Source: a virus. From it: a stretch of 29,379 nt of DNA. The stretch's first letter is position 1. Every line of letters starts with the position of its first letter. A model generated the notes under the pieces. That model was not told the origin of the DNA. It ran no database searches and was given only the letters and a program-made list of their open reading frames with translations. Where the stretch lies: positions 1-29,379 of IMG/VR virus record IMGVR_UViG_3300008105_000031; one strand, written 5' to 3'. The position numbers and the translations under genes were made by a program. Shown here one piece after another: positions 7,471-11,610 of this stretch.

Positions 7471-7646
7471 CACACTTCCTCCTTGTTGATAATATCTAAA
7501 GCCTCTTGCGCTCTCGCGGCCATTTCTACGGCTAAGTCTTTCCAAGCATTTTTACTGGAAGAGTATCTGTCTAAGCCGTCAGCACAGTAATGATTCGCAA
7601 TTGCCCTTAATGCATCTAAGGCCGTTTCAAATTGTTCGTTGTTCAT
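7470..7646 (-). CDS. Hypothetical protein, 58 aa
   Basis: A 58-residue helical protein starting MNNEQFETALDALRAIANHY and ending ARAQEALDIINKEEV. The ATG overlaps the upstream stop as ATGA (7643-7646), and the last codons (AACAAGGAGGAAGTG) carry the strong ribosome site for the next gene, so the two are tightly linked. No family recognised. Confidence 0.7.
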   Translation of the reverse strand: MNNEQFETALDALRAIANHYCADGLDRYSSSKNAWKDLAVEMAARAQEALDIINKEEV

Positions 7647-7861
7647 GACTGCACCTCCCCATAAAAAAGGATATGGGAATCTTCCTTGCGTTGATTAGTG
7701 GTTATCAGGTCTAAGTTGCCCCGTAACCCAGAGCAGTCGCCCAGTAGCCCTGTGCAGTTGCCCCGCATTTCGGGGTTTGTGCCAAGAATTTTTACCCCAT
7801 CAACATAATGGTACAATTCTTGTGTGTAGAAAATTTTTAATGGTTTATTGTTGGTGCTCAT
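7643..7861 (-). CDS. Short protein with a GNCTGL/GDCSGL repeat
   Basis: A 72-residue protein. Residues 34-50 read GNCTGLLGDCSGLRGNL, i.e. a seven-residue unit of the form G-(N/D)-C-(S/T)-G-L-(L/R) repeated, followed by DL. Repeats of this GDxSGLxG type occur in phage and bacterial hypothetical proteins and suggest a tiny beta-solenoid; two Cys face the same position. The flanks are unremarkable (FYTQELYHYVDGVKILG before and HILFYGEV after). Coupled by ATGA at both ends. Function unknown; a longer homologue might show more units. Confidence 0.7.
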   Translation of the reverse strand: MSTNNKPLKIFYTQELYHYVDGVKILGTNPEMRGNCTGLLGDCSGLRGNLDLITTNQRKEDSHILFYGEVQS

Positions 7862-9396: not shown

Positions 9397-9450
9397 ATGC
9401 CAAAAGGCTATTGGAGAATAAGTCATGACCGACCGCATGACCGCCGCTGA
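9397..9450 (+). CDS. Possible 17-aa leader peptide or gene remnant
   Basis: A short frame (MPKGYWRISHDRPHDRR) with an excellent ribosome site, GGGGAGGAATAGCC, before the ATG. It runs past the start of the next gene (9425) in another frame, so ribosomes finishing it would end near that gene's second ATG at 9437. It may be a coupling peptide. Its first residues also look like the opening of DUF1330 proteins (M-x-KGYW), so a decayed gene is an alternative; both readings are tentative. Confidence 0.3.
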   Translation: MPKGYWRISHDRPHDRR

Positions 9451-9829
9451 ATATCAGGCTCTTACAAAAACCAAGCCTAAGAAACGGTCAAAATACGGCA
9501 ACGTACGCACAGAGTACGGGGGCAGGACATACCACAGCAAGGCAGAGGCGGCCACAGCGGCGTTGCTAGACGGCCTACAGCGTGTTGGCAAAATTCGTAG
9601 CTGGCTACCACAACAACCCAGCTTCCCCATGCCCGGCGGCGGAAAATACACAGCGGACTTTCTGATTTTTGTTACGGATGACCATTATCACGTTCACGAT
9701 ACCAAAGGTTATGACACGGCGGAAAGCAAACTAAAGCGCAACTACGTCAAGGAAAAGTACGGTGTTTTTATTACCACAACAGACAGTGACCTGATTGAAG
9801 TGGTGGAACATTTGTACCTTTTAACTTGA
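9425..9829 (+). CDS. DUF1064 nuclease-like protein
   Basis: A 134-residue protein matching the DUF1064 family (PF06356) of phage proteins: KRSKYGNVRTEYGGRTYHSK then AEAATAALLDGLQRVGKI, and later GKYTADFLIFV with HVHDTKGYDT. The arrangement of a conserved Glu in SKAEA, the Asp of ADF and the D-x-K of HDTKG resembles a PD-(D/E)XK nuclease core, as in Holliday-junction or VRR-type enzymes, so DNA cleavage during replication or recombination is likely. Start at 9425 follows GGAG; 9437 is an alternative. It lies just before the structured leader and replication genes. Confidence 0.8.
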   Translation: MTDRMTAAEYQALTKTKPKKRSKYGNVRTEYGGRTYHSKAEAATAALLDGLQRVGKIRSWLPQQPSFPMPGGGKYTADFLIFVTDDHYHVHDTKGYDTAESKLKRNYVKEKYGVFITTTDSDLIEVVEHLYLLT

Positions 9830-9852
9830 TTTTAATCACCGCTTGGTATAGC
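9826..9852 (+). promoter_or_regulatory. Possible promoter with extended -10
   Basis: TTGATT (9826-9831, overlapping the DUF1064 stop), a 15-base spacer and TATAGC (9847-9852) preceded by TGG, an extended -10 element. A transcript from about 9860 would begin with the GGGGGCT run of the structured region that follows. The spacer is short, so the call is weak. Confidence 0.35.
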
Positions 9853-9861
9853 GTTTTATAG

Positions 9862-9952
9862 GGGGCTCGGCTTTGCAAGGCCGCATACCCAATCTTTCCT
9901 TCGTCGGACGGGTTAGCCCCTTACCTTTTAACAGACGAGGGAGAGACGAAGG
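9862..9952 (+). ncRNA. Structured 5' leader before the replication genes
   Basis: This gap holds several matching stems. GGGGCT (9862-9867) pairs with AGCCCC (9915-9920). Inside it is the hairpin CGGCTTTGCAAGGCCG (9868-9883, 6 pairs, one G-U), plus ACCC/GGGT (9887-9890 with 9910-9913). An alternative long-range pairing, CCTTCGTC (9898-9905) with GACGAAGG (9945-9952), would hide the ribosome site of the gene at 9958. TTTTAAC (9926-9932) with GTTAAAA (9952-9958) is a third option. The competing folds look like a translational switch, but no known riboswitch class is recognised. Confidence 0.45.
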
Positions 9953-9957
9953 TTAAA

Positions 9958-10239
9958 ATGATTGCTTACCCTAAGGATCAATCCTTAAAAGAGTGCGTTG
10001 GCTATGTTCTTCAGAAAATGGACAGGCGCGACGAAGATTTTGGAAAGCTTACTTTTGTTTATTGGAGGCTTTATTGCGATTCTAATCTATTTCGTGAAGA
10101 TGAGATAGAGTATGTAGATAAAATTATAGAACCGTATATGCGCGATTTAATTAGTCGCGGCCTTTTCCCGCCTAAGAAACCTTTTTCTTTGAAAAAAGAA
10201 GGCAATGTTATTTATCTTTACGAAAATAAGGATAAATAA
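9958..10239 (+). CDS. Hypothetical protein before the replication initiator
   Basis: A 93-residue protein starting MIAYPKDQSLKECVGYVLQK, helical, with charged and aromatic patches (KLTFVYWRLYCDSN) and a basic C-terminus. Not recognised. GAAGG lies 5 bases before the ATG and could be masked by the upstream stem. It lies 2 bases before the initiator gene in the same direction, so a replication role is plausible by position. Confidence 0.65.
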   Translation: MIAYPKDQSLKECVGYVLQKMDRRDEDFGKLTFVYWRLYCDSNLFREDEIEYVDKIIEPYMRDLISRGLFPPKKPFSLKKEGNVIYLYENKDK

Positions 10240-10241
10240 CA

Positions 10242-11165
10242 ATGAACATCCCTAAAGCTAACAGTAGCCGCAATGGTTTTATCAAACTTTGGTACGGATT
10301 GAACGATTGGGAATGGGCAGACGATCCCCACACTCTTGCCCTATGGATTCATCTACTGCTTGCCGCCAGTTGGCAGGACAAAGAGTGGAAAGGACACACC
10401 ATAAAACGCGGACAAATCGTGTTCGGACGCAAGCAGTGGGCTGAAAAGACTGGATTATCAGAACAGCAGATCAGAACTTGCCTCACTAAGCTAAAATCAA
10501 CCAGCAACATAACCATCACATCAACCAGCAAGTTCTCGTTGTTAACTATTGTAAACTATGAAAAATATCAATCCACAGAAAAAAATCAACCAGCAAATCA
10601 ACCAGCAAGTCAACCGGTCATCAACCAGCAAGTTAACCACATCTTAAGACTGGAAGACTGTGAAGAAGGAAAGACAAGTAAGTATACCCCCCTACCCCCC
10701 AAGGGGGGGGATGTGTCGGTTGCGGATTTCGATTCGGTTGTTGAAACCCCGGTGAAGAAAAAACCTCGAAAGCAAAAACCGCCAGAAGCCCCGTTGGTGA
10801 TTCCGGAGTTCATCCCGGAAACCGCTTTGAACGCTTTTTTTGCCAATCGTGCGAGCATGAAAAAACCCATGACAAATCATGCAAAAGAGCTTTTAATCAA
10901 TAAAATCACAGAATTATATCGTAAAGGCCATGACCCAACCAAGTTACTAGAAAGAGCAATTTTAAGCGGATGGCTTACAGTTTACGAATCAAATGACACC
11001 CTAACCGACGGAGTTAAAAATGAACCCTTTCAACAAAGTAATGGAAGAAATCACTCTCAATCGAAGCCAAGCTTCCAAAGCGCATGGGATGAGCAGCAAG
11101 CCATCAACATCGCCTACGTCCGCCAGCTTGGAGAGCAAGCCAGAGCCGAAAAAAACGGCATCTGA
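10242..11165 (+). CDS. Phage replication initiator (O-like, winged helix)
   Basis: A 307-residue protein. The N-terminal ~110 residues (NGFIKLWYGLNDWEWADDPH, then GRKQWAEKTGLSEQQIRTCL and LLTIVNYEKYQ) match the winged-helix N-terminal domain of phage replication proteins of the lambda O/DnaD-like type, which bind the origin. A Gln/Asn/Pro-rich linker (about residues 105-130) is encoded by the iterons, and a basic linker (KKKPRKQKPP) leads to a C-terminal helical domain (about 185-250) likely to contact the helicase loader. As in lambda, the origin appears to lie inside the initiator gene. Its last 146 bases are shared with the next gene in another frame. Confidence 0.8.
   Translation: MNIPKANSSRNGFIKLWYGLNDWEWADDPHTLALWIHLLLAASWQDKEWKGHTIKRGQIVFGRKQWAEKTGLSEQQIRTCLTKLKSTSNITITSTSKFSLLTIVNYEKYQSTEKNQPANQPASQPVINQQVNHILRLEDCEEGKTSKYTPLPPKGGDVSVADFDSVVETPVKKKPRKQKPPEAPLVIPEFIPETALNAFFANRASMKKPMTNHAKELLINKITELYRKGHDPTKLLERAILSGWLTVYESNDTLTDGVKNEPFQQSNGRNHSQSKPSFQSAWDEQQAINIAYVRQLGEQARAEKNGI
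10497..10631 (+). repeat. Iteron array, probable replication origin
   Basis: TCAACCAGCAA occurs exactly at 10497, 10521, 10586, 10598 and 10621, with a degenerate copy TCAACCGGTCA at 10610. The last four are spaced 12, 12 and 11 bases, about one helical turn. The exact copies are read in three different codon frames of the surrounding gene, so the repeat is conserved as DNA rather than as protein. An AT-rich stretch (10541-10585) lies between the two groups and contains CAATCCACA (10569-10577), close to a DnaA box. This fits an iteron-type origin bound by the protein encoded here. Confidence 0.75.
10695..10710. repeat. Homopolymer inverted repeat C6-AA-G8
   Basis: CCCCCCAAGGGGGGGG inside the initiator gene, 64 bases after the iterons, preceded by another C6 run (10687-10692). 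It can fold into a tight hairpin or stall polymerases, and the G8 tract is prone to slippage, which would shift the frame of the initiator. Role unknown. Confidence 0.55.
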
Positions 11166-11610
11166 ACAATGGGGTAAGGCTGCTATGGAAGAGCTTGGAA
11201 AGGTTATGGTTGTTTTCACTGAAATACAAAAAACTTACGGAAAAACAATTAACTTGCCAGCCTCAATATCGGGATTTAGGTTCGCGTTTGAGGGCAAATA
11301 CACCCCCGAACAGGTGCAGTACGCGCTGAAAGTCCACTTGCAAAACTCGCAGGAATTCCCAACCCCGGCGCACATCACGGCCATTTTGAACCCACCTAAG
11401 CCCCGTGTCAGCTATGCCGAGTACATCGCCGCCCTTGAGTGGCAGAAGCGCAATCAAGACTGGTCGCAGTTCTCCAGCGCAGCCGACACCATCCGGGATT
11501 ACAGGCTCGCTTCGCAGAACGACGAACATGCCTATGAGCGGCAACAGGAGGAGATTGCGCTGATAGCCAAAGCCGCCCCCTTGCTTTTGGAAGACAGCAG
11601 CGAAGACTAA
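11020..11610 (+). CDS. Probable replication accessory / helicase-loader-like protein
   Basis: A 196-residue protein with a Ser/Pro/Lys-rich N-terminus (to ~residue 48), then a helical domain including GFRFAFEGKYTPEQVQYALK, FPTPAHITAILNPPKPRVSY and AEYIAALEWQKRNQDW. I recall the PxPAxI...PPKPxxS-AEYxxA pattern in alphaproteobacterial phage proteins next to initiators; position matches lambda P-type helicase loaders, but no ATPase motif is present, so the role is inferred. GGAG 7 bases before the ATG supports the start, which makes a 146-base out-of-frame overlap with the initiator gene. Confidence 0.65.
   Translation: MNPFNKVMEEITLNRSQASKAHGMSSKPSTSPTSASLESKPEPKKTASEQWGKAAMEELGKVMVVFTEIQKTYGKTINLPASISGFRFAFEGKYTPEQVQYALKVHLQNSQEFPTPAHITAILNPPKPRVSYAEYIAALEWQKRNQDWSQFSSAADTIRDYRLASQNDEHAYERQQEEIALIAKAAPLLLEDSSED

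Follow-up and report, generated by a model that had tools for sequence, protein, structure and literature searches.

An iteron array inside a phage initiator gene, probably read by the protein that the gene encodes

The window, a 29,379-bp stretch of viral DNA, carries a short repeat within the gene of a predicted replication initiator. These repeats are very probably the iterons of the phage's replication origin, lying inside the gene of the very initiator that binds them. The repeats are selected as DNA and the layout of the array is conserved among homologues. Covariation between two residues of the protein and two positions of the repeat is strong evidence that the initiator protein reads the repeats. 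Gene-embedded iterons are already known from lambda O and the P22-like phage L. It is likely, though with less confidence than the origin itself, that the window belongs to a large cross-phylum family of phage initiators with a readable code (residues 75 and 63) and a common 11-12-bp lattice that writes both wing and linker, so that the origin sequence is predictable from two residues. In that reading, whether position 3 of the iteron is A or G depends on residue 75 being Gln, Arg or Lys, and whether position 6 is C or A depends on residue 63 being Arg or not.

Results

The initiator gene (10242-11165, plus strand, as are all features below unless stated) encodes 307 amino acids: an N-terminal winged-helix DNA-binding domain, an iteron-encoded linker and an O-like C-terminal part. 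In profile searches, residues 11-133 match the DnaD-like helicase loader family phrog_2514 (E 1.9e-24) and residues 63-285 match the O-like phrog_678 (E 4.7e-19). The DNA-binding domain (codons 12-110, 10275-10571) was modelled by AlphaFold with a pLDDT of about 90 in the core, giving helices at 63-70 and 74-86, wing strands at 90-94 and 99-103, and a hairpin tip at S94-T95-S96-K97. A PDB sequence search with the domain returned nothing below E 0.09. By structure, staphylococcal plasmid RepA initiators are among the top matches and are the best over the full length (4pql, Z 9.1; 4pt7, 8.8; 5kbj, 8.4; 4pta, 8.0), aligned over residues 3-105 with 94 residues for the top match; CAP-type winged helices, aligned over fewer residues, score less than one Z unit lower. 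An overlapping downstream gene (11020-11610, 196 aa) is a candidate helicase loader by its position only, that of lambda P. It has no significant family match in profile searches, and its identification as a known loader was rejected, the sole match, to the annotated SMO_1P loader, being trivial (E 0.09). The gene that follows the initiator is a replicative helicase in several isolated relatives. Upstream, an inverted repeat with 18-bp arms (10203-10244) ends on the initiator start codon and buries the likely ribosome-binding site AAGGAU. Its RNA fold is -15.5 kcal/mol (z -4.6), with no shuffle equally stable, and it may throttle translation of the initiator.

Five exact copies of TCAACCAGCAA lie in the gene. 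The first (10497-10507) directly follows the recognition helix and encodes S86-T87-S88-N89; the second (10521-10531) encodes the wing tip S94-T95-S96-K97; both are in frame 0. The third and fourth (10586-10596 and 10598-10608) are in frame 2 and read NQPA, and the last (10621-10631), in frame 1, reads INQQ. Between them stands a degenerate copy, TCAACCGGTCA, with three mismatches (10610-10620, frame 2), and the frames therefore run 0, 0, 2, 2, (2), 1. The copies other than those at 10497 and 10521 encode the disordered linker NQPANQPASQPVINQQ. A very degenerate copy, ATAACCATCAC (10509-10519), encodes a wing strand and is in register on a 12-bp lattice, splitting the 24-bp step from 10497 to 10521 into 12+12. 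The unit is 11 bp and non-palindromic, and a search of the whole 29,379-bp record found no further exact copy.

The sequence-only reading had placed five exact copies and one degenerate copy in three codon frames, with spacings of 12, 12 and 11 bp. We find both, the spacing applying to the last four copies (10586, 10598, 10610, 10621). Its argument from the frames holds for the linker copies but not for the two upstream ones, which are both in one frame and fall within the codons for the conserved wing. Its conclusion that protein selection cannot explain the copies is nonetheless borne out. The array exceeds chance: among 20,000 synonymous versions of the gene drawn from the codon usage of the phage, none held five copies of any 11-mer (the maximum was four, once). 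In 20,000 permutations of the gene's own codons the maximum was three.

Other repeats were seen that are of a different kind or of no assigned role. A 21-bp tandem repeat at 7714-7763, inside a minus-strand ORF of unknown function (7643-7861), scores 65, equal to the linker iteron array. In locus L032 (8178-8212), three exact copies of TCAACCAGCAA at 12-bp pitch open an unrelated gene and read QPASQPAS, a coding repeat, so a doubled iteron alone is unsafe as a marker. The matches of L032 and L029 to the doubled iteron were rejected as relatives, both being unrelated coding repeats.

Homologues were sought with four alignments, which yielded 350 usable loci; 175 of these were less than 85% identical in the domain, and 173 were testable. 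The test asked for repeats stronger than in synonymous-codon permutations at p<=0.05. A significant in-gene array was present at the same place in 164 of the 173 nonredundant homologues (146 at p<=0.01) and absent in nine. Among 162 neighbouring ORFs put to the same test, four passed at p<=0.05 and three at p<=0.01. The same scan recovered the four annotated lambda iterons; with TP901-1 Rep, taken as a positive control, the repeats were not significant. Nor did it find a significant array in Shewanella 3/49, Anoxybacillus A403, Vibrio phage jenny or a Segatella plasmid gene. Plasmids yielded only three distant matches.

The layout is that of a lattice. Within clusters, copies across the family are spaced by 11 bp (393 times), 12 bp (303) or 10 bp (4) and never by 13 bp. 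With steps of 11 or 12 bp the copies cycle through the codon frames, and 140 of the 164 array-bearing genes use all three. One cluster lies in the codons of the wing and the other in the linker. Relative to the codon of Gln110, wing copies in homologues start at -72, -60 and -48, and the -60 place, that of the window's degenerate 10509 copy, is occupied in 92 of 161 homologues. The step between the clusters, counted from the final wing copy to the first one in the linker, is 54-57, 65-68 or 77-79 bp in 147 of the 156 genes whose step falls between 50 and 82 bp; if steps were spread uniformly, 52 genes would be expected.

When viral contigs were searched for exact matches to the doubled iteron, divergent initiators with the same layout also came up. 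In one homologue about 50% identical (L035), the copies follow at steps of 24, 65, 12, 12 and 11 bp, and TCAACCAACAA occupies the lattice place of the window's degenerate fifth iteron (10610). In another (L028) the gap is 66 bp, so that the same repeat DNA reads KSTSKSTSK instead of the window's NQPANQPA. Homologous linker copies occur in every frame across different genes. The alignment of homologues that the sequence-only reading had proposed as a check thus came out in its favour, the repeat DNA being kept with shifted frames. An array of the CAACAACAAATCA type at 11-bp pitch, in three frames (p 0.005), was also seen in the DnaD-like loader of Staphylococcus phage SA12 (L378, 901-1788), which suggests that phages of S. 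aureus carry gene-embedded arrays of this kind as well.

We then compared the consensus of the linker copies with the protein residues in 161 genes, the register being fixed by the wing lattice. At position 3 of the iteron, genes with Gln75 have A and not G (86:0) and those with Arg75 have G and not A (42:0; Fisher 9e-35); with Lys75 the base is G in 12 of 12, mostly as AGGGC. Position 6 is C in 93 of 96 genes with Arg63 and in 4 of 65 with other residues (Fisher 1.6e-35). A mutual-information map of 99 residues by 12 columns put the same two pairs on top, 75 with column 3 (APC z 14.9) and 63 with column 6 (12.7); the next pair, residue 74 with column 6, has a z of 6.0. Kinship alone does not explain this covariation, because the changes share branches on a tree built without the positions compared. 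Residue 75 changes 50 times and column 3 46 times, and 30 of the former changes fall on a branch that also carries one of the latter (hypergeometric P 1e-17); for residue 63, with 32 changes, and column 6, with 36, the number is 25 (P 1e-22). Close pairs that differ by Gln or Arg at 75 differ accordingly in their iterons. Gln-adenine and Arg-guanine are classical contacts between side chain and base. In the window, codon 63 (10428-10430, at the start of helix 2) is Arg and codon 75 (10464-10466, at the start of the recognition helix) is Gln; by covariation they pair with C6 and A3, and the iteron, tcAaCC, fits.

When the iterons were instead aligned on their A/C backbone, the code fitted less well (91:0 and 6:38 for residue 75; 81/15/4/64 for residue 63), since units rich in A and C can also be matched out of register. 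We therefore relied on the register given by the wing lattice and on a test that needs no register. Counted without register, AACC occurs in 48 of 58 genes with Q75 and R63, AACA in 35 of 37 with Q75 and another residue at 63, GACC in 29 of 32 with R75 and R63, GACA in 10 of 11 with R75 and another residue at 63, and GGC in all 13 with K75. The code is also obeyed outside the set from which it was derived: by Cellulophaga phi18:3 and Vibrio 1.135.O (K75, GGC), Solobacterium SMO_1P and Dulem virus 39 (R75, GACA), and Dulem virus 31 (Q75, AACA). The last of these (L382, PP511318) is classed in Microviridae, yet it has 35.8 kb and a dsDNA-phage replication module, and the classification looks wrong.

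Two further features that the sequence-only reading had counted towards an origin fared less well. The spacer between the two clusters (10532-10585; 65 bp start to start, a spacing conserved in the family) is 74% AT against 55% for the gene and is a possible unwinding site. Its AT content is mostly dictated by the protein, the excess over what the encoded amino acids require being z 1.85 in the window and a mean z of 0.29 over 161 homologues, and AT enrichment of the spacer was rejected as an unwinding signal. Over the 60 bp that follow the array, AT content is 71% on average in the family and 58% in the window. The near-DnaA box CAATCCACA at 10569 has two mismatches; the window contains 80 matches of that quality, and the box was set aside as chance. 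The cumulative GC-skew minimum speaks against an origin at the array, since it lies near 8.5 kb and not 10.5 kb, though it coincides with a switch in gene orientation.

Around 9915-10729 of the window, three relatives (L009, L010 and L011) share the C-terminal half of the initiator and the neighbouring genes, and their N-terminal halves are unrelated. L010 is 94% identical to the window over 9411-9914 and 97% over 10730-11609. The segment between is unrelated and holds another DNA-binding domain with significant repeats of its own (ACGATCACCC, p 0.002). L011 is swapped over the same place, and its repeats are not significant (p 0.2). The DNA-binding half of the initiator is a replaceable cassette, and reader and site thus move as one, at least in L010.

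Discussion

The window array consists of tandem direct repeats that are selected as DNA and lie between the DNA-binding domain and the C-terminal part, which is the anatomy of gene-embedded iteron origins. By that anatomy we file the site with origins of the lambda and P22 kind. That the encoded initiator recognises the repeats, as in such origins, is indicated indirectly, by the covariation of residues and bases. In Salmonella phage L gene 18 and relatives such as SE1, 11-bp repeats, TGTCCAACGGA, lie inside the initiator gene and are a proposed origin (PMC8022706). We recovered the SE1 array at 11-bp pitch with a helicase gene next to it, and SE1 Gp18 is distantly homologous to the family in its N-terminal domain (E 4e-6 to the homologue L124). 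However, the iteron sequence is another one, the repeats lie in the linker only, with none in wing codons, and no recognition code is described there. In the SE1 gene (L373, 829-1728), 11-bp repeats stand on both sides of a 44-bp step, equal to four 11-bp units.

Lambda gene O likewise has its iterons mid-gene, beside an AT-rich region, and its four annotated iterons are in frames 0, 2, 2 and 1. Lambda iterons are 19-bp imperfect inverted repeats (PMC7466680), spaced by 20-24 bp, whereas those of the window are 11-bp non-palindromic units at 11-12-bp pitch. The window protein has no detectable homology to lambda O (hhalign probability 0.1%, E 0.63) and no Pfam match to Phage_rep_O. The sequence-only reading had spoken of a lambda-like origin with its own sequence family; the embedded layout and the separate iteron sequence stand, and the likeness to lambda is one of analogy only.

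PLE RepA and the plasmid RepA_N initiators have an iteron-binding N-terminal domain and a variable C-terminal domain, and RepA_N iterons are 8-9-bp semi-palindromic repeats (PMC7145576). These initiators (pSK41, pTZ2162, PLE RepA) bind iterons with a similar domain and give the best full-domain structural matches, closely followed by CAP-type winged helices, but their iterons differ from the 11-bp non-palindromic units of the window, and the window protein has no match to the Pfam RepA_N profile. Lactococcal TP901-1 Rep, the replisome organizer, is a DnaD-like helicase loader annotated as an experimentally shown replication protein. Its origin repeats are intragenic. It differs in its N-terminal domain and in repeats that fall short of significance in our scan.

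An array read by its own protein could also be a regulatory site, bound to control transcription or copy number while the origin lies elsewhere. Covariation indicates recognition rather than replication, and many initiators also control their own expression. Yet 255-390 bp inside the gene is an unusual place for an operator, the domain families are those of initiators, helicase genes follow in several relatives, and in the precedents, lambda and phage L, the sites are origins or have been proposed as such (PMC7466680, PMC8022706). We consider such a regulatory role unlikely. Less probable still is that the array serves mainly as a recombination junction for exchanging initiator halves. L009, L010 and L011 do share a C-terminal half behind unrelated N-terminal halves, but the right-hand junction falls about 55-100 bp after the array and not inside it, the exchanged cassettes carry different repeats, and a junction leaves the recognition code unexplained.

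It could finally be asked whether selection on the protein, or slippage, made a low-complexity Ser/Thr/Asn/Gln/Pro linker of which the DNA repeats are a by-product. The linker is indeed of low complexity, and the protein is poorly constrained where the repeats lie. Against this stand the synonymous nulls, the change of frame at 11-bp steps, the differing frames of homologues, and the fact that the array covaries with residues whose codons lie upstream of it. As a full explanation it is refuted by the nulls, the frame shifts and the covariation, and we give it almost no weight.

For iterons of an origin, we propose that one winged-helix domain would bind each 11-bp unit, with monomers head to tail. 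In the recognition helix, residue 75 at its start would read position 3. The helix before it would contribute residue 63, likewise at its start, which would read position 6, probably as the G opposite C6. At a pitch of 11-12 bp, neighbouring subunits would sit on almost the same side of the double helix, with one unit to each turn, and two clusters of subunits would flank the AT-rich segment. The assembled initiator would then melt an AT-rich stretch, not necessarily the spacer, where AT is not enriched beyond what the protein requires. The C-terminal part of the initiator would bring in a helicase or helicase loader. This model, from the stoichiometry of binding through the opening of the strands and the recruitment of the helicase to the firing of the origin, is inferred, and with it the origin activity of the array.

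Until now, gene-embedded iterons were known from single phages, and initiator specificity at the level of residues was worked out one by one. Neither a residue-to-base code nor iterons that encode a wing nor a common lattice turned up for this family in the literature covered, which takes in few subscription journals. With origin and reader in one gene, each metagenomic contig holds a matched pair of protein and DNA, and 161 such pairs sufficed to read out two likely contacts. The low-complexity NQP, STN and TTNKN linkers would be explained as frame-shifted readings of an origin. Residues 75 and 63 would predict the origin sequence of uncultured phages, and they help to explain why replication modules are exchanged as units.
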